The notes under the pieces: generated by a model
Told to the model about the DNA's origin: nothing
Database searches by the model: none
What the model saw: only the letters and a program-made list of their open reading frames with translations
Position numbers and translations under genes: made by a program
From: Tsuneonella dongtanensis
GTDB taxonomy: Bacteria; Pseudomonadota; Alphaproteobacteria; Sphingomonadales; Sphingomonadaceae
Reading direction: 5' to 3'
DNA: 64,000 nt
Assembly (NCBI RefSeq): GCF_001698205.1
Contig: NZ_CP016591.1
Span: 1,240,001-1,304,000, forward strand
In this document: positions 34,675 through 47,285 of the stretch, piece after piece
Layout of the letters: each line of letters begins with the position of its first letter
How positions within the stretch are numbered: position 1 is the first letter of the stretch

Positions 34675-35433
34675 ATGACTTATTGCGTGGGAATGGTGCT
34701 CGACAAGGGCCTCGTGCTGATGAGCGACACGCGGACCAATTCGGGCGTCGACAACATCTCGGTGTTCCGCAAGATGATGTTCTGGGAGCAGCCCGGAGAA
34801 CGCATCATCGCCGTGATGACCGCGGGCAACCTTGCCACCACCCAGGCAGTCATCAGCCAGCTCGAGGAGCGCACCAAGGCTCCCGGCGAGCGGCACAACA
34901 CGGTGTATGACGCACCGACCATGTTCCAGGTGGCGACCGAGATCGGACGCCTGCTGCGCGATACGATCGACGAGCGCCAGGCCGCCAACGGCAGCGCTGG
35001 CCAGGGACGTTTCACCGCCTCGATCATCGTCGCCGGACAGATCAAGGGGATGGAGCCGCGGCTGTTCCTGATCTACCCGGAAGGCAACTTCATCGAGGCC
35101 AGCTGGGATACCCCGTTCTTCCAGATCGGCGAAACCAAGTATGGCCGGCCGATCCTCATCCGCGCCTACGACAGGTCGATGAGCTTCGAGGATGCAGTGA
35201 AGCTGCTGATGGTCAGCTTCGATTCCACGCTCAAGGCAAACCTGTCTGTCGGCCTGCCGCTCGATATGATGGTGATAGAGCGCGACACGTTCATTGCCGG
35301 GCACCAGAGGCGCATCACGCACGAGGACAGCTATTTCCAGGCGATCTCGGCCGGGTGGAGCGATTCACTGCGCAATGCCTTCAACGAGCTTCCCGACTAC
35401 AGCTTTTTCGCGCAGGCAGACGAAACGGCCTGA
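34675..35433 (+). CDS. Anbu, proteasome-type protease
   Basis: 252 residues of the Anbu (ancestral beta subunit / bacterial proteasome homologue) Ntn-hydrolase family. It begins MTYCVGMVLDKGLVLMSDTRTN; the threonine after Met would be the catalytic nucleophile once Met is removed. HslV-like strands continue with IIAVMTAGNLATTQ and FTASIIVAGQI. Anbu forms open ring or spiral assemblies with little known protease activity. It ends the ATP-grasp/alpha-E/transglutaminase cluster, 65 bp downstream. No unfoldase gene is present. Confidence 0.9.
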   Translation: MTYCVGMVLDKGLVLMSDTRTNSGVDNISVFRKMMFWEQPGERIIAVMTAGNLATTQAVISQLEERTKAPGERHNTVYDAPTMFQVATEIGRLLRDTIDERQAANGSAGQGRFTASIIVAGQIKGMEPRLFLIYPEGNFIEASWDTPFFQIGETKYGRPILIRAYDRSMSFEDAVKLLMVSFDSTLKANLSVGLPLDMMVIERDTFIAGHQRRITHEDSYFQAISAGWSDSLRNAFNELPDYSFFAQADETA

Positions 35434-35607: not shown

Positions 35608-36225
35608 ATGGGTCAGCGCAACGTCATCCACTTCGTCGACGCGGACATTCGCATGCGGGCGGACCTCGCCCGCACGGCCTTCGCGATGGGGCATCACGCA
35701 GAGGTCTATGCCGATCTCGGCGAACTGTGCGAGCATCCGCCGCAGCGCGGCATCGTCGTCGTTCGCGACCAGTTGGAGAGCGGCGGGATCGAGGCCACGC
35801 TCGACCTGCTTGCCCGGGTCGGGATCTGGCTGCCGGTGGTCGCCATGGACGAAGCGCCGCGGACCGCGCGGGTGGTCGCCGCGATCAAGGCGGGCGCGCT
35901 CGACTACCTGCCGCTGCCGCTGGAGCCGGAACGGCTCGATGCCATGCTCGAACGGATCGGCGACGAGGCGCGCGAGCATGCCGAGGCGCGCCGACGGATG
36001 GTCGAGGCGCGCGGCCGGATCGGCGCGCTCTCTACGCGCGAGCGCGAAGTGCTCGACTGGCTGGCGATGGGCAGCAGCAACAAGGCGATCGCGCGCGAAC
36101 TCCAGATCAGCCCGCGCACGGTCGAGATCCACCGCGCCAACATGATGACCAAGCTCGGTGCCAGCCATGCCGCCGAGGCGGTGCGCCTGCGGATCGAGGC
36201 GCGCCTCGACGGGGCGCGGCTCTAG
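35608..36225 (+). CDS. Atypical NarL/FixJ-family response regulator
   Basis: 205 residues: receiver-like domain 1-115 and a C-terminal LuxR-type helix-turn-helix (LSTREREVLDWLAMGSSNKA, 141-160, then SPRTVEIHRANMM). The receiver keeps D11 and D13, but the phosphoacceptor position reads VVVRDQL, placing R53 where Asp is expected with D54 one residue on, and the conserved Lys site reads LPLPLEP. It may be phosphorylation-independent or use a shifted Asp. The upstream 20 bases form a CCGGC/GCCGG hairpin with no clear ribosome site. It lies 174 bp past the Anbu gene. Confidence 0.78.
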   Translation: MGQRNVIHFVDADIRMRADLARTAFAMGHHAEVYADLGELCEHPPQRGIVVVRDQLESGGIEATLDLLARVGIWLPVVAMDEAPRTARVVAAIKAGALDYLPLPLEPERLDAMLERIGDEAREHAEARRRMVEARGRIGALSTREREVLDWLAMGSSNKAIARELQISPRTVEIHRANMMTKLGASHAAEAVRLRIEARLDGARL

Positions 36226-38461: not shown

Positions 38462-39100
38462 TCACCAACGGATAAGGCGCGGTCCCGCAATCCGGCCGAC
38501 GAGCCCCGTCACGAACACCGGCACGATGTGCCAGACGCCCAAGTGGGCCAGCCCATCGAGCGGACACGTGAGCCCATAGGCCGCAGACCCCAGGGCGCTC
38601 GCGGCGACCCCGAGGAAAAGTCCTGCTCGTTCGGGCGCGACCGGTGCCCCGCGGCGAAGCCACAGGCCAAGCGACAGGGCGACCAGAAGCGAGGATGCTC
38701 CCGCCTTCAAGGCACAGTCGAGGTCGATCCATCGGTCGATCGTCGGGCCGTGAGAAACGCCCGGCGCCATCCACGCGATCAGCGCGGCGAGCGGCAGCAG
38801 CGCCAGTCCCGCCATGGCCCACTTGGGCCCATCGTAGGCGGCGCCAACACGCGGGGACGCCATGGCGACCACCGCCAATGCCGATGAAATGCCGGTGAGC
38901 AGGAGGAGCCCGTTGGCGACGATCGACATCTCCGCCATAGGTTCGTCGAGAAATACGGGCCGTCCGAACATCACGAACACGGCCGCCACCGTCGCGGCGA
39001 AGGCAAGGCCTACCGCAGCCGCCCCGGAGCGCATCTTGAGCGGCCGCACCGGCGCGAGGTCGTCGACCAGGCTGTCGATCAGGGGATTGTCGTGCATCAT
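38462..39100 (-). CDS. nrsF: NrsF, membrane anti-sigma factor of SigF (DUF1109)
   Basis: 212 residues with six predicted membrane helices and a short cytosolic N-terminus (NPLIDSLVDDLAPVRPLK), the DUF1109/NrsF family. Cysteines C129 (LDCALKAG) and C179 (GLTCPLDG) match the pair that the Caulobacter NrsF uses to sense heavy-metal stress. It would hold SigF inactive at the membrane until metals or oxidants attack these thiols. The start at 39100 lies 4 bp after the sigF stop; a second ATG follows directly. It is the last gene of the bufA1-doxX-sigF-nrsF operon. Confidence 0.9.
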   Translation of the reverse strand: MMHDNPLIDSLVDDLAPVRPLKMRSGAAAVGLAFAATVAAVFVMFGRPVFLDEPMAEMSIVANGLLLLTGISSALAVVAMASPRVGAAYDGPKWAMAGLALLPLAALIAWMAPGVSHGPTIDRWIDLDCALKAGASSLLVALSLGLWLRRGAPVAPERAGLFLGVAASALGSAAYGLTCPLDGLAHLGVWHIVPVFVTGLVGRIAGPRLIRW

Positions 39101-39104
39101 GTCT

Positions 39105-39635
39105 TCAATTCGCTTTTTCGACGAGGGCGGCAAGGCGCTTGAGCCCCCGGTGGACGTTCACTTTGACAAGCGACTCGCTCTGTCCGCAGATGCGGGCGGC
39201 GTCGCTCACCGGCTGGCCCTGGATCTTGACAAGGCGGATGGCGGTGGCCTGCGCCTCGGGCAGGCTTTCGAACAGGCGATCGAGGCTGATCCGCGCGGCG
39301 ACGGCGTCCTGCTCGGGCAACTGCTCGAACTCATATCCTTCGATGCCGACTTCCTCGTTGCGATAGACGCGGCGCAAGTGGTCGACCCAGCGATACCGCG
39401 CGATCGCCGCGAGCCACGGCAGGAACGGCCTCGCCGGGTCGTAACTGGCACGTTTGGCGTGCAGGCTGACAAGCACTTCCTGCACCAGGTCGTCGAGCTG
39501 TTCCGGTGCGACCCGACGGCGAAAGTAGCGGGTAAGCCAGCCACCGCATTCGCGCAGGAGCGCGTTGTAGGCAGTTCGGTCGCCGCCTTGGCTGGCGCGC
39601 ATCAATTGCGCGAGGGTGGCCTCGTCGGCGATCAC
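39105..39635 (-). CDS. sigF: ECF sigma factor SigF (metal stress)
   Basis: 176 residues, GTG start overlapping the doxX stop (GTGA). Region 2: LDDLVQEVLVSLH and FLPWLAAIARYRWVDHLRR; region 4: SDAARICGQSESLVKVNVHRGLK. Pairing with a DUF1109 protein and a bufferin gene defines it as SigF-like, the sigma factor that answers chromate, cadmium and copper in Caulobacter. Two GTAAC(C/G)-N16-CGAA promoters in the adjacent divergent region are its probable targets, one of which drives its own operon. Confidence 0.9.
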   Translation of the reverse strand: MIADEATLAQLMRASQGGDRTAYNALLRECGGWLTRYFRRRVAPEQLDDLVQEVLVSLHAKRASYDPARPFLPWLAAIARYRWVDHLRRVYRNEEVGIEGYEFEQLPEQDAVAARISLDRLFESLPEAQATAIRLVKIQGQPVSDAARICGQSESLVKVNVHRGLKRLAALVEKAN

Positions 39636-40105
39636 TGGACCACGCGCCGCGCGAGCAGGTGATCGAGCGAGAGCAAGCCGCCGCCGCGCGCCACAAGTAC
39701 CAGCGCCATCGCCGCCCACAGCGAGTGGGTCGGCCACCACGCTTCGGGATAGACGAAGAGCTGGATCACCAGCGTCATGCCGATGAGGCCCAGCGCAGAG
39801 AGCCGGGTGGCGAGTCCGAGCACGAGGAGGATCGGCAGGACCGTTTCTCCCCACAGCGCCATCTGCGCGGACAGCCCAGCCGGCACCGGGACGCCCGCGT
39901 ACTCGCTCTCGAAGAGGAAGCGGGAGGTGTCGCTCAGTTCCATCCAGGTCCCCTCGACCACCTTGGTCCGGCCCGAGCGCCAGAACACGCCGCCGAGCGC
40001 AAGACGGGTCAGCAGCAGGGCAGCCGCTTCGACCGCGGCCGACGATAGCATTCCGGCGAGCCGGTCCCAATGGTGCCGGATTCCAGGGTGGACGAGGGTG
40101 CCCAT
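39632..40105 (-). CDS. DoxX-family membrane protein of the bufferin operon
   Basis: 157 residues with four helices (LLLTRLALGGVFWRSG near the start, GETVLPILLVLGLATRL in the middle), typical DoxX. DoxX genes accompany bufferin operons and other metallophore clusters; a role in membrane redox chemistry or thiol handling is suspected. The start at 40105 is 5 bp after the bufA1 stop. An open frame continues upstream through bufA1, but that is a different reading frame and is rejected. Confidence 0.88.
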   Translation of the reverse strand: MGTLVHPGIRHHWDRLAGMLSSAAVEAAALLLTRLALGGVFWRSGRTKVVEGTWMELSDTSRFLFESEYAGVPVPAGLSAQMALWGETVLPILLVLGLATRLSALGLIGMTLVIQLFVYPEAWWPTHSLWAAMALVLVARGGGLLSLDHLLARRVVQ

Positions 40106-40110
40106 GGCGA

Positions 40111-40389
40111 TCAGCGCTTGACCGGGGTGAGCGAACCCTTGCCCTTGGGGGTCTGGGTCTTCACGCAAGTGCCTTCCTTGACGAGCTTCCAGGCATTGCC
40201 CTGGTAGTCGCGGGTCGATGTGCCCGCGCAGCTCGTACCGGGGCCGGCGGCGCAGTCGTTCTTGCCCGCCTTGGAGATGCCGTAGCACTTTTCCATTTTG
40301 TCGGCGGCGTGGGCGGGGGCGCCGAGCGCAAAGGTGGCGGCAATGGCCGCCAGTGCGATCGATCCGGCGGCAATCGAGGTCTTGTTCAT
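40111..40389 (-). CDS. bufA1: BufA1-type bufferin precursor (DUF2282)
   Basis: 92 residues: signal peptide 1-28 (ALGAPAHA) and a 64-residue core with four cysteines, C35, C46, C54 and C75, in the DUF2282 pattern ([13 protein letters not shown] ... EGTC). Bufferins are RiPPs whose cysteines are converted by the BufB iron enzyme with BufC into copper-binding heterocycles and exported to buffer periplasmic copper. It is the first gene of an operon with doxX, sigF and nrsF and is preceded by a SigF-type promoter. It has no bufB of its own, so the divergent BufBC pair probably modifies it. Confidence 0.88.
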
Positions 40390-40432
40390 GGCAGTCTTCC
40401 CTTTTCGTTCGGGGTGGGTCTCGCCCTGCCAA

Positions 40433-40458
40433 TTCGGGAAGTCTGCCGGTGCGGTTAC
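40433..40458 (-). promoter_or_regulatory. SigF-type promoter of bufA1-doxX-sigF-nrsF
   Basis: Minus-strand GTAACC (40458-40453), 16 bases, CGAA (40436-40433). This equals the Caulobacter SigF motif GTAACC-N16-CGAA. It starts the operon that includes sigF itself, so SigF is autoregulated. Confidence 0.82.
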
Positions 40459-40483
40459 AGCCGCTTTCTTTTTTCCTTGCGCT

Positions 40484-40509
40484 GTAACGGCGCGCTCCAT
40501 GGGGGCGAA
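40484..40509 (+). promoter_or_regulatory. SigF-type promoter of bufA2-bufB-bufC
   Basis: GTAACG (40484-40489), 16 bases, CGAA (40506-40509), one base from the motif on the other arm and with identical spacing. The transcription start would be about 30 bases before the bufA2 ATG. Confidence 0.8.
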
Positions 40510-40552
40510 CCAGCCCGTGCCGATCACCGGCAAGCACACGGGAGATTTCCAC

Positions 40553-40837
40553 ATGACCACGATTCGCAGCGGCGCCAGCATCGCCGCTTCCGCCGCGCTC
40601 TTCGCGATGTCCGCCATGGTCTTCGCCGCCGAGCCGCCTGCCGGCAGCACCGGCCGGGCCCTCGGAAAGGAGGACACGGTGCATTGCTACGGCGTCCACA
40701 GCTGCAAGGGCAACGCGGACTGCAAGACCACCGCCAACGAGTGCAAGGGCCAGAACGTCTGCAAGGGCCATGGCTTCAAGGCGATGGCCGCGGGCCAGTG
40801 CCTCGCCAAGGGCGGCACCATCGGCGACCTTGGCTGA
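40553..40837 (+). CDS. bufA2: BufA2-type bufferin precursor
   Basis: 94 residues: signal peptide 1-26 (AMVFAAE) and a core with six cysteines at 45, 51, 57, 64, 70 and 83, in a [15 protein letters not shown] / [13 protein letters not shown] pattern typical of the BufA2 bufferin subfamily. It is the precursor for BufBC maturation. GGAG lies 8 bases before the ATG. It differs from BufA1 on the other arm in number and spacing of cysteines, so the two products may bind metal differently. A 14-bp stem-loop separates it from bufB. Confidence 0.87.
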
Positions 40838-40851
40838 CGACAGTCGGCCCT

Positions 40852-40902
40852 GCGTCCCGCCGGGGTCCCGTACCCCCCTCCTCGTCCCCGGCGGGACGCT
40901 TT
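40852..40902 (+). other. Stem-loop between bufA2 and bufB, probable attenuator or mRNA stabiliser
   Basis: GCGTCCCGCCGGGG (40852-40865) pairs perfectly with 40886-40899 around a 20-base pyrimidine-rich loop that includes CCTCCT. Only three U follow, so it should be a leaky terminator or a 3' end protector that gives more precursor than enzyme. Confidence 0.7.
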
Positions 40903-40927
40903 ACCGCAGGAAGCGAACGAGATTTCC

Positions 40928-41764
40928 ATGCCGACTGAACCCACTGCCTTTTCCGGCTTCGGCCTCGGCTTGCGCAGAGAGCATTATGCCGACTTCGTCG
41001 AGGGCGGGGTGGCAGTCGATTTCGTCGAGATCATCTCGGAAAACTACATGGTCGACGGCGGCCGTCCGTTGGCGACGCTGGACAAGGTGCGCGCGCACTA
41101 CCCGGTGGCGATGCACGGCGTCTCCCTGTCGATCGGCCGGGCCGAGGGGCTGGACGACGGGTATCTCCGGCGGCTGCGCGACCTCGCCGACCGGATCGAG
41201 CCGCTATGGGTGTCCGATCACCTGTGCTGGACGGGCACCAACGCGCACACCACCCACGACCTCCTGCCGATGCCCTACACCCGCGAGGCGCTCGACCTCG
41301 TCTGCCGCAACATCGACCGCGCGCAGGATGCTCTGGGCCGCACGATGCTGTTCGAGAACCCGTCGAGCTACCTCGCCTTCCCGGAGGACGAGATGCGCGA
41401 GTGGGAATTCATCGCCGAGATGGCGCGTCGGACCGGGTGCAGCCTGTTGCTCGACGTCAACAACGTCTACGTCAGCGCGCACAACCACGGATTCGAAGCC
41501 GAGGATTTTCTTGCCGGGCTCCCCGCCGACCGGGTGCGGCAGATGCACCTTGCCGGGCATACACCCGGCGAGATCCTGATCGACACCCACGACCGGCCGG
41601 TATGCGACGGCGTCTGGGACCTCTACGCCAGGGCGGTCGAGCGCTTCGGCCACGCAGCGACGATGATCGAGCGCGACGACGACGTGCCGCCGCTCACCGA
41701 CTTGCTCGCCGAACTCGACGTCGCGCGAGGCTTCGCGAGCGCGGTGGAAAGGCGCGCGGCGTGA
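40928..41764 (+). CDS. bufB: BufB, multinuclear non-heme iron enzyme (DUF692/MNIO)
   Basis: 278 residues, TIM-barrel family related to methanobactin MbnB. Likely metal ligands are visible as AMHGVSLSIG, VSDHLCW, LFENPSSYL, LLDVNNVYVSAHNH, MHLAGH and DTHDRPV. MNIO enzymes use two or three irons and O2 to turn peptide cysteines into thiooxazole or oxazolone groups; here the substrate should be BufA2 and perhaps BufA1. AGGAAG precedes the ATG. Its stop overlaps the bufC start (GTGA). Confidence 0.92.
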   Translation: MPTEPTAFSGFGLGLRREHYADFVEGGVAVDFVEIISENYMVDGGRPLATLDKVRAHYPVAMHGVSLSIGRAEGLDDGYLRRLRDLADRIEPLWVSDHLCWTGTNAHTTHDLLPMPYTREALDLVCRNIDRAQDALGRTMLFENPSSYLAFPEDEMREWEFIAEMARRTGCSLLLDVNNVYVSAHNHGFEAEDFLAGLPADRVRQMHLAGHTPGEILIDTHDRPVCDGVWDLYARAVERFGHAATMIERDDDVPPLTDLLAELDVARGFASAVERRAA

Positions 41765-42543
41765 GCCTGGCCGCCGTCCAACACGATTTTCTCGCCCAGG
41801 TCCTCGACGAGGATGCCGCCATGCCGCCGCACTGGTCGGCGCGCGAGCGGACGGGGATGGCCATCTACCGCAACGCCTATCGCGCGCAACTGGTGGGTGC
41901 CCTCGGCGAAACGTTTCCCGCGGTGAAGGCCTGGGTCGGCGACGAATCCTTCGCCCGGGCCGCGGCGCACCATGCGATCGTCAACCCTCCTTCGAGCTGG
42001 TCGCTCGACCATCTGGGCGCGGGCTTCGACGAAACGCTGGAAGAGCTGTTCGCGAACGATCCAGAGGTCGCCGAACTCGCATGGCTCGAATGGCATATGC
42101 ACCTTGCCTTCGTCGCCCGCGACGCGGTGCCGCTCGACCAAGCGGGGCTCGCCGCGGCGATAGGCACGGTTGATCCTGAGGACATCGCAGCGCTGCGGTT
42201 CACGACCCTCCCCGGACTCGCCGCGCGGCGCGTGTCCCACGATATCCCCGCGATCTGGACCGCCGCCACGTCCAACGCCGAGCTTCCCTCGGACTACCGG
42301 CTGGCCGAAGCCGCCGGCATCGTCGTCTGGCGCGAGGGGCTGCGATCGGTGTTCCGGCCCGCCTCCGCGGGCGAGGCGGACTGCCTCGCGCTTGCGGCCG
42401 GGGGCGCGACTTTCGGAGAGGTCTGCGCTTTGCTCGGCGAACGCCGCGCGGACGAGGCGAGCGCCGCCGCCGCTGCGGGCGAAATGCTCACGCGCTGGAT
42501 CTGCGACGGGATGCTCGCGGCGATCGGCCCCCGAAAGCCCTAG
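41761..42543 (+). CDS. bufC: BufC, DUF2063 partner of BufB
   Basis: 260 residues, GTG start overlapping the bufB stop. The N-terminal DUF2063 domain (QHDFLAQVL, RTGMAIYRNAYRAQLVGAL, then TFPAVKAWVGDESF) is the part that binds the precursor leader in MbnC-like partners. The C-terminal part is a less conserved winged-helix-like region ending in [10 protein letters not shown]. It forms a complex with BufB. The 3' end overlaps typA by 4 bases on the opposite strand. Confidence 0.9.
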   Translation: MSLAAVQHDFLAQVLDEDAAMPPHWSARERTGMAIYRNAYRAQLVGALGETFPAVKAWVGDESFARAAAHHAIVNPPSSWSLDHLGAGFDETLEELFANDPEVAELAWLEWHMHLAFVARDAVPLDQAGLAAAIGTVDPEDIAALRFTTLPGLAARRVSHDIPAIWTAATSNAELPSDYRLAEAAGIVVWREGLRSVFRPASAGEADCLALAAGGATFGEVCALLGERRADEASAAAAAGEMLTRWICDGMLAAIGPRKP

Positions 42544-44503: not shown

Positions 44504-44537
44504 CGGGCTTACGAAATGTCGCTTGAGCGGGCTTACG
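44504..44537 (+). repeat. Direct repeat CGGGCTTACG upstream of the TonB receptor
   Basis: Two identical 10-base copies at 44504-44513 and 44528-44537, 24 bases apart centre to centre, about 90 bp before the receptor start. Possibly a regulator site; nothing else supports that. Confidence 0.4.
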
Positions 44538-44624
44538 GGCAAGTTTATTGACCGCGCTGTCAGTTGGGGCAGGTTGGGCGACCAAAGCAAGGTGCCGATC
44601 TTCCCGCTTAGGAGAGGACGTTTC

Positions 44625-47285
44625 ATGATCAAGACGCGCACCGGATTCGCCGGCTCGGCCCGATTCACCCTGCTTGCGGGGGCCGCCGCCCTGGCGCTGC
44701 CGGGCATCGCACACGCCCAGGACGCGGCCGACGATGCGGCCGTCGAGGAAGAAGAAGCGAGCGGCAACCAGATCGTCGTCACCGCGACGAAGCGCGAACA
44801 GACGCTGCAGGAAGTCCCGGTCGCGGTCAGCGTGACCACCGCCGAAACGATCGAGCGCGCGCAGATCCGCGACGTCACCGACCTTGCCACCGTCGTCCCC
44901 TCGCTCCGCGTGACGCAGAGCCAGAGCCAGGTGGCCACGACCTACTCCATCCGCGGCTTCGGCACGTCGGGCAACAACATCGGATTCGAACCGTCGGTCG
45001 CCATGTTCGTCGACGGCGTCTATCGCAGCCGCGCGATCGCGCAGATTTCCGACCTTCCGGACATCCAGCGCGTCGAGGTCCTTCGCGGCCCGCAGTCGAC
45101 CCTGTTCGGCAAGAATGCCTCGGCGGGCGTGATTTCCCTGGTCACGAAGGCACCCAGCTTCCGGTTCGGAGGCTCGCTCGAGGCGAGCTACGGCAATTAC
45201 GACGCGATGGTGGTCAAGGGTTACGTAACCGGTCCGATCAGCGATTCGATCGCCGCCAGCCTTGCTGCGGGTTACAACCGCCGCGACGGATACGTCACGA
45301 ACCTGTTCAACGGTGACGACCTCAACAATCGCAACCGCTGGTTCGCCCGTGGGCAGGTGCTCATCGAACCCAGCGACACCTTCAAGTTCCGGGTTATCGG
45401 CGACTACGACGAGATCGACGAGAAGTGCTGCGCGGCCTTCAACCTGCAGCGATCGCCGTTCGGCTTTACCACTGCGGTCGAAGCCGTCGGCGGCCGCATC
45501 AACGATTTCCGCGATGTTCCCGATGCCGATGTCGTCTATTCGGACGTTGTACCATTCAGCAAGGTCCGCAACTTGGGCATCTCCGGACAGGGTGACCTCG
45601 AACTCGGCGCGCTGACGCTGACGTCGATCTCGGCCTATCGCGATACACAGTTCGACGCAGACCAGGACGTCGATTTCTCGAGCGCGCGCCTCGCGACCGG
45701 TGCGAACATCGGTCAGGTCAGCCTGAAGACCTTCACTCAGGAACTGCGCGTCGCTTCGGACTTCGACGGTCCGCTAAACTTCCTGCTCGGCGGTTACTAT
45801 TTCAACGAGAAGGCCCGCAGCGCCGACCAGATCGTCTTCGGCGCCGACTTCCGCAATTATGTCGGAGCATTGCTGTCGCAGCAGGCCCCCCCCGGTACGA
45901 CCGTCGCGGGGCTCGAGGCCCAGTTCGGCGCGCTTACGGGTCAGAACTTCACGAACCGCTTCTTCGCCGCCGGGCAGGGCTTCTTCAACGACATGAGCCA
46001 GGACAACGAGGCGTATTCGCTGTTCGGCAACGTGGATTTCGAGGTGTCCGACGCGCTGACGATAACCCTCGGCGCCAACTACACGCACGATGCGAAGGAC
46101 GTGACGACCAATTCGGTCAGCACGGATGTCTTCTCGGGCCTCAACCTCCCCGCCATCCGGCAGACCGCAATCAATGCAACCGTGGCGGGCCAGGTCGGCG
46201 CGCGGCTGACCCCGGCGGTGGCCTTTGCCACTCCGGCACAGATCGCAGCGTTCGCTGCCGCAGGTCCGGTGCAGGCCGCGACGCTCGCTGCGATCCAGGC
46301 TGCGGCAACGACCGGAACGGCATCAATCCTCGCGCTCACGCCGTTCCAGTTCCTGCCACCCTTCCAGAACTGCCCCAACGCGGTCGAGGCATGCCGTACC
46401 CGCGACGGCGACTGGAGCTGGACTGCGCGCCTTGCGTATGAATTCAGCCCGACGCTGAACGCCTACGCCAGCTGGTCGACGGGCTACAAGGCACCGTCCT
46501 TCAACCTCTCGCGCGACAGCCGGCCCGCAACATTTATCAATGGTGTGCCGGCCGGTGATTGCGCTGCGTTGATATCTGGCGGCCTTGCGGTCACCAATCT
46601 GACATGCGGCCTGCGCTTCGCAGCTGCGGAGAATTCGGAGGTCTACGAGGTCGGCATCAAGGGCAACTGGGGCATCGCCGCCGCCAATCTCACCCTGTTC
46701 CAGCAGTCGATCAAGAATTTCCAGACCAACGTGTTTACCGGACTTGGTTTCGCGATCGGCAACGCCGAGAAGCAGGAAACGAGGGGTGTCGAATTCGACG
46801 GGTACGTCCGTCCGACCGACCAGCTCACGTTCAATCTCGCGATGACCTACCTCGATCCGAAGTACGCGCGTTACACGGCATCGCCGTACGGCGACATCTC
46901 GGGCACGTCGATCGTCAACATCCCCAAGCTGTCGGCGGTGTTCGGCGCGCAGTGGGACCAGGAGCTGGCCAGTGGCGACCGCCTCATTGCGCGGACGGAC
47001 TTCAGCTATCAGTCGCCGATCCAGGTTGCCGAGGGCCTCGTCCGCTTCGGTAGCGTCGCTGCCAACCTCGCTGCGGCGCGTCCGTTCCGGGCCGAGGTCA
47101 ACGACCTCAACGCGTCGCTCACCTATGCGATGGAGATGGGTCTCGAACTGACCGTCTGGGGGCGCAACCTGCTCGACGACCGCAACATCACCGGTATCTT
47201 CGATTCGACAGCGCAGAACGGCTCGGTTTCGGGTTACACCAACCAGCCGCGCACCTACGGCGTAGCGGCGCGCTTCAAGTTCTGA
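44625..47285 (+). CDS. TonB-dependent outer-membrane receptor
   Basis: 886 residues. Signal peptide ends near LPGIAHAQ; the plug starts with QIVVTATKREQTLQEVPVAV and contains VEVLRGPQSTLFGKNASAG; the beta-barrel ends in the classic AARFKF with terminal Phe. The family imports iron chelates, vitamins, sugars or other large substrates with energy from TonB. The sequence gives no ligand. ~60 residues around 545-605 are unusually Ala/Thr-rich. AGGAG lies about 9 bases before the ATG. No neighbouring gene suggests a substrate. Confidence 0.9.
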   Translation: MIKTRTGFAGSARFTLLAGAAALALPGIAHAQDAADDAAVEEEEASGNQIVVTATKREQTLQEVPVAVSVTTAETIERAQIRDVTDLATVVPSLRVTQSQSQVATTYSIRGFGTSGNNIGFEPSVAMFVDGVYRSRAIAQISDLPDIQRVEVLRGPQSTLFGKNASAGVISLVTKAPSFRFGGSLEASYGNYDAMVVKGYVTGPISDSIAASLAAGYNRRDGYVTNLFNGDDLNNRNRWFARGQVLIEPSDTFKFRVIGDYDEIDEKCCAAFNLQRSPFGFTTAVEAVGGRINDFRDVPDADVVYSDVVPFSKVRNLGISGQGDLELGALTLTSISAYRDTQFDADQDVDFSSARLATGANIGQVSLKTFTQELRVASDFDGPLNFLLGGYYFNEKARSADQIVFGADFRNYVGALLSQQAPPGTTVAGLEAQFGALTGQNFTNRFFAAGQGFFNDMSQDNEAYSLFGNVDFEVSDALTITLGANYTHDAKDVTTNSVSTDVFSGLNLPAIRQTAINATVAGQVGARLTPAVAFATPAQIAAFAAAGPVQAATLAAIQAAATTGTASILALTPFQFLPPFQNCPNAVEACRTRDGDWSWTARLAYEFSPTLNAYASWSTGYKAPSFNLSRDSRPATFINGVPAGDCAALISGGLAVTNLTCGLRFAAAENSEVYEVGIKGNWGIAAANLTLFQQSIKNFQTNVFTGLGFAIGNAEKQETRGVEFDGYVRPTDQLTFNLAMTYLDPKYARYTASPYGDISGTSIVNIPKLSAVFGAQWDQELASGDRLIARTDFSYQSPIQVAEGLVRFGSVAANLAAARPFRAEVNDLNASLTYAMEMGLELTVWGRNLLDDRNITGIFDSTAQNGSVSGYTNQPRTYGVAARFKF

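Follow-up and report, generated by a model that had tools for sequence, protein, structure and literature searches.

Two divergent gene rows occupy positions 38462–42543 of the window, the 64-kb stretch of DNA analysed here, which belongs to a genome of 3.01 Mb in a single contig. The minus arm encodes, in this order, Buf1 (DUF2282), DoxX, SigF and NrsF, and the plus arm encodes Buf2, BufB and BufC (Table 1). The precursor genes bufA1 and bufA2 are separated by 163 bp between start codons at 40389 and 40553, as the original prediction held, and its placement of sigF and nrsF within one of the two operons is borne out, both lying in the Buf1 arm. Intergenic distances in the minus arm amount to 4–5 bases or to an overlap of 4 bases, the latter between the GTG start of sigF and the stop of doxX; the GTG start of bufC overlaps the bufB stop by four bases. 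Because of these overlaps, each arm looks like one operon.

The N-terminus of Buf1 is signal-peptide-like as judged by eye, and the best named matches of the Buf2 protein come from Sphingobium, Novosphingobium and Sphingopyxis. BufC scores 22.1 bits against the HvfC equivalog NF050145 (cut-off 142). NrsF reaches 36.3 bits against the NCBIfam equivalog NF042994 (cut-off 300) and is therefore treated as a homologue rather than as the curated equivalog; its two Cys columns are conserved in 97/97 and 96/97 matches and lie 50 residues apart in the window protein. Elsewhere in the window, a proteasome-family peptidase gene (34675–35433; PF00227, 40.7 bits) adjoins a probable response regulator gene named by eye (35608–36225), and a TonB-dependent receptor gene (44523–47285; PF00593, PF07715) lies past both the bufferin locus and a gene that by eye resembles typA.

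Table 1. Genes and promoter features of the divergent bufferin locus (positions in the 64-kb window).
Feature	Position	Strand	Basis and remarks
nrsF, membrane anti-sigma factor	38462–39100	-	PF06532 (DUF1109) 108 bits, over cut-off; two conserved Cys
sigF, ECF sigma factor	39105–39635	-	PF04542 and PF08281 over cut-offs; GTG start
DoxX-family membrane protein	39632–40105	-	PF07681 60.8 bits
bufA1, Buf1 (DUF2282) bufferin precursor	40111–40389	-	PF10048 83.8 bits; 92 aa; four Cys
SigF-type promoter, Buf1 arm, GTAACC-N16-CGAA	40433–40458	-	Exact match; pair conserved in relatives
Inter-promoter segment, 25 bp, gap class 22–25	40459–40483		Its length is the phased quantity
SigF-type promoter, Buf2 arm, GTAACG-N16-CGAA	40484–40509	+	Matches GTAACS-N16-CGAA; pair conserved in relatives
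bufA2, Buf2 (6-Cys) bufferin precursor	40553–40837	+	NF050166 104.3 bits (cut-off 60); 94 aa
bufB, MNIO bufferin maturase, Buf2 (Cys-Lys) type	40928–41764	+	NF050167 382.3 bits (cut-off 310); tree
bufC, DUF2063 partner protein	41761–42543	+	PF09836 72.2 bits; GTG start

Divergent SigF-type promoters

The two N16-spaced sites that had been proposed between the arms were both found in place (Table 1). They had further been said to match the Caulobacter SigF promoter, which is exact for the minus site, while the plus site has G instead of C at base 6. The 25-bp segment between them contains a T-rich tract at 40465–40474. Two motif matches in the 64 kb, a number reached by 2 of 100 shuffles, compare with 0.14 expected in shuffles, and the single motif has 18 copies in the genome as opposed to 5 of the reversed pattern, with many of the 18 overlapping long reading frames (sorted in part). 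As evidence, a lone motif carries little weight and the divergent pair a great deal. The pair pattern TTCG-N17-GTTAC-N(10-40)-GTAAC-N17-CGAA was searched with the same gap range of 10–40 in the family and in the class, and was found in 52 of 397 family genomes (1/397 for the reversed pattern). It occupies 53 places including that of the window: bufferin loci account for 40, 2 have only sigF as a neighbour, and 11 lie elsewhere, 3 of them no more than about 4 kb from a bufferin locus but outside its inter-arm gap. The twin-promoter observation is thus confirmed as real and conserved by the comparison with related genomes that had been proposed as a check.

Extension of the compact pair to other families was rejected, as only 3 genomes of the 385 sampled in the class contain it, one of which is that of the window (five of the 385 are members of the family). 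Within the family, five of the 11 places elsewhere are in genomes of one genus, g95 (G107, G357, G174, G301, G377; L100, L102–L105), and have a divergent GTTAC/GTAAC pair with a gap of 17; bufferin genes were not found in 14-kb stretches around them.

Loci were also sampled independently of the motif by a PF05114 search of the same 397 family genomes, 151 of which gave a match; among the matches listed, 80 further MNIO loci were taken (60 high-score, 20 lower-score), and the surroundings of the 52 other divergent-pair places and of the window's own were examined. Four layouts are distinguished: nrsF-sigF-doxX-buf1 divergent from buf2-bufB-bufC (layout A, that of the window and also of Sphingobium fluviale CHR27, locus L022), doxX-buf1 divergent from sigF-nrsF-buf2-bufB-bufC (layout B), buf1-bufB-bufC-doxX in a single row, often with sigF-nrsF (layout C), and buf2-bufBC divergent from buf1-bufBC-doxX (layout D). 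Head-to-head loci outside layout D (n=78) contain the exact pair in 62 cases and a pair with at most one deviation in 70; for the head-to-head loci found through MNIO and not through the motif (n=31), the numbers are 17 and 24. Two head-to-head loci (L141, L200) have no pair.

The SigF-type assignment of both promoters is supported by a mapped precedent. In the sections of the Caulobacter crescentus study on which we draw, 5'RACE places transcription starts at GTAACC-N16-CGAA upstream of both CC3254 and CC2907; CC3254–3257 encode DUF2282, DUF692, DUF2063 and DoxX, and CC2907–2905 encode DUF2282 (as CC2907 is listed), DUF692 and DUF2063 (Kohler et al. 2012, PMC3511200). There, lacZ fusions were made for the CC3254 and sigF promoters, the CC3254 fusion was basal without sigF, and both operons were down in sigF mutant arrays under dichromate. 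NrsF is a negative regulator that requires Cys 131 and Cys 181, and sigF shows no strong autoregulation (PMC3511200). Since starts, fusions and arrays in Caulobacter bear on the same motif, SigF very likely controls both arms at the window locus. We take CC2907 to be a Buf2 precursor.

Control of bufferin operons by SigF is already known. As far as these sections of the Caulobacter study go, the window locus and the Caulobacter SigF regulon (CC3252–CC3257 and CC2905–CC2907) are alike in promoter sequence, spacer, SigF with NrsF and the presence of two bufferin-type operons; in Caulobacter, however, the operons are separate, each has its own DUF692/DUF2063 pair, and sigF has its own promoter (Kohler et al. 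2012, PMC3511200). The window instead has one intergenic region, one BufBC pair, and sigF downstream of buf1 and doxX. By analogy with Caulobacter, the stimulus would be a metal or an oxidant. Positive feedback through sigF in the Buf1 arm is to be expected, but may be weak, given that sigF is not strongly autoregulated in Caulobacter.

Outside the window, the same genome has a SigF-type motif 9 bases before an open reading frame with a SelR domain (methionine sulfoxide reductase B type; G000:C1:405444, L035) and another 4 bases before that of a DUF1223 protein (385713, L034), both of which are possible further SigF targets in envelope repair. In the window's genus (g1, 11 genomes), NrsF occurs only in the genome of the window and in G003, and the same is true of MNIO among the matches listed; the bufferin locus is patchy within the genus.

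Helical phasing of the promoter spacing

The most unusual feature of the locus is the helical phasing of its promoters. The gap was counted in head-to-head loci as the bases that separate GTTAC from GTAAC, using 75 pairs with at most one deviation and excluding six pairs with two (gaps 24, 32, 33, 34, 35 and 42). Gaps fall at 13 (4 loci), 22–25 (23), 32–37 (28) and 43–47 (16), plus 62, 62, 68 and 75, and none of the 75 loci has a gap of 14–21, 26–31 or 38–42. The best-fitting period is 10.5–10.7 bp, depending on the subset. With each genus-gap value taken once at 10.5 bp, R is 0.74 when gaps of every size are used (n=61) and 0.77 below 60 (n=58), and 0 of 20,000 uniform simulations were as strongly phased. 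With one locus per genus (32 genera, gaps below 60), the median R over 5,000 draws is 0.78 and the largest approximate p is 9e-7; simple p-values for phasing are inflated because the loci are related. Layouts A (R=0.82, n=48) and B (R=0.78, n=18) are each phased, as are the MNIO-derived loci, for which no gap range was set and layout D was included (R=0.82, n=25 below 60 bp). The four gaps above 60 were excluded from the one-per-genus test, from the layout and tract-subset tests and from part of the genus-gap test; the gap of 62 misses the register by about 3.5 bp.

In the same loci, the separation of the facing genes gives R=0.25 (n=71), but contains the promoter gap and is therefore not an independent control. 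The 11 non-bufferin places yield seven distinct gaps (10, 17, 18, 19, 21, 27, 30) with R=0.61 (n=7), and this small control is not flat. A search with a gap range of 14–44 returned 8 genomes, all of them already in the first sample. Within the family, the spacing of the -35 elements thus appears to be quantised in approximately whole helix turns, a reading that is well supported.

A prediction fixed from the first sample (phase 2.5 modulo 10.5) was carried over to a held-out search of genus g63 with gaps of 25–55, where the pair is present in 29 of 114 genomes (reversed control 1/114). Bufferin loci make up 20 of the 26 new places, at gaps of 33, 33, 35, 35, 36, 43, 43, 44, 44, 45, 45, 45, 46, 46, 46, 47, 52, 53, 55 and 55; their phase is 2.63 with R=0.69 and a V-test p=6.5e-6 that ignores relatedness within the genus. 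The distinct gap values alone (n=11) give R=0.58, and one of the 20 held-out loci (in G948) is nearly identical to a first-sample locus (in G321). The other six new places (gaps 27, 28, 42, 42, 42, 54) have no adjoining bufferin genes in the stretches examined.

It could be argued that the phasing is a founder effect, in which a few ancestral spacings drifted slightly with no constraint. The loci are indeed related: the fewest changes of spacing class on the BufB protein tree, some branches of which are weak, number at least 18 among 72 loci, and eight changes picked by eye from that tree reach only p=0.006. Against such an origin, single genera contain spacings that differ by jumps of about 10 or 21 bp (23 and 33–34 in g59; 22, 25 and 45 in g16), and four g63 loci of the held-out set form a further class of 52–55 bp, close to the predicted 55; we regard a founder effect as unlikely. 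A phasing constraint in the window's family is well supported. In another alphaproteobacterial family (f12), 11 pairs upstream of sigF among 30 NrsF loci have gaps of 14–47 and are unphased (R=0.18; two pairs with two deviations, gaps 22 and 25, left out); one of the 11 faces Buf1. Two of these loci (L238 and L245, from the f12 set L227–L245) were seen, among five frames read, to face a frame with a signal peptide and Met-rich repeats. In a third family, one Buf1/Buf2-like pair was seen, with a gap of 30 that is out of phase.

Possible causes of the phasing

From ECF structures, region 4 of SigF would contact the AAC of GTAAC. By arithmetic, the contact centres are then about gap + 7, or 31, 41 and 52 bp, apart; this is close to 3, 4 and 5 turns and would place the two polymerases on nearly the same face of the DNA. 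The quantised spacing suggests either cooperation of the two polymerases or a factor that bridges them. In its direct form, the two promoters would be one cooperative bidirectional unit, in which two identical ECF-polymerase complexes sit on the same face at a distance of 2 to 5 turns, each recruiting or stabilising the other, both arms fire together, and evolution tolerates almost only whole-turn insertions. We put this forward tentatively, as a possibility that falls short of being probable.

An A-to-T tract resembling an UP element provides a different explanation: if one shared tract served both polymerases and lay on the right face for each, the gap, as the sum of the two distances, would be quantised as well. 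With a hand-set matrix and a threshold of 8, the tract is scored in 47 of the 66 segments between paired promoters, compared with 7.3% of shuffles; of the one-way SigF-type promoters, 18 of 29 have it, located 13–16 or 23–25 bp upstream of GTAAC and phased with R=0.82. In the divergent pairs, however, it shows no overall phasing to either arm (R=0.07 and 0.13), pairs that lack it are phased nonetheless (R=0.71, n=19, vs R=0.84, n=47, with the tract), and it is absent from the gap-13 pairs. A shared UP element as the whole cause was therefore rejected, contact between polymerases or a bridging factor being favoured, and we consider a shared tract a doubtful explanation. No likelier is a regulator or nucleoid protein between the promoters that bridges or bends the DNA and so sets the register; it would account for a register held over 2 to 5 or more turns, a distance at which direct contact is not easy, and most pairs have an A/T-rich centre, yet no conserved operator is seen by eye between the -35 elements except the A/T tract, which is itself below threshold in 19 of 66.

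A partial parallel is found in HrpL of Pseudomonas syringae, where the portion of the study considered here describes an ECF promoter near a divergent promoter and an UP-like tract, although the facing promoter is sigma-54 dependent (PMC5263251). In the open-access papers searched, we found no account of helical quantisation of paired like ECF promoters. Cooperation between polymerases at ECF promoters, with or without a factor between them, becomes testable by insertions through this natural series of spacings about one turn apart.

One BufBC pair beside two precursors

The original prediction also had two precursor types share one BufBC pair, and this gains support from the genome, which has a single MNIO match and a single DUF2282 match (Buf1 itself), as well as from relatives that lost Buf2 and keep BufBC beside Buf1. 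The published form of a Buf1 cluster, with Buf1 followed by its own Buf1-type MNIO pair, differs from the window, where DoxX follows Buf1 and the only MNIO is of the Buf2 type. Buf1 and Buf2 occur with one BufBC at the locus in 67 genomes, 51 of which have exactly one MNIO and 12 two or three, with 4 named records uncounted; among the 12, the BufB of the locus is in two pieces or cut in G028, G241 and G288, and the locus of G199 (L181) is cut at the contig end and may be of layout D.

In a quick tree of 139 BufB proteins, which left out short or low-score matches (L089, L095 and L099 among them), 29 of 30 Buf1-adjacent BufB fall into one clade (SH-aLRT 99) that contains 0 of the 96 Buf2-adjacent ones. 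The BufB of layouts A and B, common to Buf1 and Buf2, are all among these 96. In the part of the captophorin study cited here, an Asp that follows the catalytic Asp at a substrate-facing site is a marker of Cys-Lys MNIOs (Gadgil et al. 2026, PMC13097082). This Asp is present in 61 of 65 shared BufB and in 1 of the 30 Buf1-type BufB, of which 12 have another residue, while in 17 the site pattern was not found. With the shared BufB placed in the Buf2 (Cys-Lys) type by tree and active site, and with MNIO groups that track precursor families in the text of the Buf1/Buf2 survey used here (Antoine et al. 2025, PMC12452194), the enzyme pair may serve Buf2 only and leave Buf1 unmodified at the window locus. 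This is improbable in our view, as 22 genomes of genus g63 retain BufBC and Buf1 without Buf2, and as all four Cys are kept in 71/71 Buf1 proteins that are followed by DoxX and not by MNIO.

In many g63 genomes, the arm facing Buf1 has BufB and BufC but lacks Buf2. The check for Buf2 found 0 of the 22 over the NF050166 cut-off and detected 4/4 positive controls with Buf2; the check excluded G931 and G919, which lie on short contigs, and G860, G939 and G941 are less than 90% complete. One MNIO is present in 21 of these 22 genomes and two in G952, and no other Cys-rich precursor was evident by eye between promoter and bufB in seven Buf2-less loci. Six of the 22 loci have their BufB on the tree, where these group next to a g63 locus that carries Buf2, within the branch of layout A. 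A Buf2-type enzyme pair is thus kept where Buf1 is the only bufferin found. We infer from this natural deletion of Buf2, as the best evidence for enzyme sharing, that one MNIO pair probably serves both Buf1 and Buf2. A C-terminal TPKG-GSL tail of Buf1 was rejected as a mark of enzyme sharing because it also occurs in Buf1 with its own MNIO (4/4 dual clusters, 8/30 one-operon clusters).

We consider it probable, with considerable confidence, that the locus as a whole is a bidirectional, SigF-driven copper-bufferin locus with shared BufBC and with -35 elements in helical register. Following the Caulobacter model, a thiol-reactive metal or oxidant would act on membrane-bound NrsF and free SigF. 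SigF-RNA polymerase would then read both back-to-back promoters, as conserved motifs and gene order suggest, with Buf1, DoxX and more SigF and NrsF as the output of the minus side and Buf2, BufB and BufC as that of the plus side. The single Buf2-type BufBC is predicted to install thiooxazoles on both precursors, a chemistry taken from relatives, and both bufferins would be exported by Sec and bind excess periplasmic copper, as is known for relatives. The register of the -35 elements, which emerges from comparison, would put the two SigF-polymerases on nearly the same face, presumably because the two complexes assist one another, directly or through a factor between them.

The survey of Buf1 and Buf2 clusters names the same set of genes, namely Buf1, Buf2, MNIO, DUF2063, DoxX, sigma and NrsF, and, in the passages considered here, reports tandem precursors and places sigma/NrsF genes in clusters of the Buf1 type, with none in those of the Buf2 type (Antoine et al. 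2025, PMC12452194). The window instead has a mixed divergent cluster, and layout B has sigF-nrsF-buf2-bufB-bufC in a row on one strand; both layouts are at odds with the statement, in those passages, that sigma and NrsF are absent from Buf2 clusters (PMC12452194). The system resembles the captophorins, as far as they are treated in the part of the study cited, in an MNIO with a DUF2063 partner, which in the captophorins is a DUF2063/RRE protein, and in a Cys-Lys MNIO with its substrate-facing Asp; unlike there, the Cys-Lys-type enzyme is predicted to accept a DUF2282 precursor as well, in which no Lys follows the central Cys residues (Gadgil et al. 2026, PMC13097082). No account of a mixed divergent cluster, or of one MNIO pair for Buf1 and Buf2, was found in the open-access papers searched. 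The locus would offer a clear case in which an MNIO belonging to one class of precursor is expected to mature a different class, and such sharing would run against the published MNIO groups that track precursor families.

In four loci (L192, L193, L194 and L199), Buf2-BufBC lies head to head with Buf1-BufBC-DoxX, so that each precursor has its own MNIO, and such dual clusters are a possible ancestor of the shared layout. The promoter gap is 13 in three of these loci and in L181, and 37 in L199.
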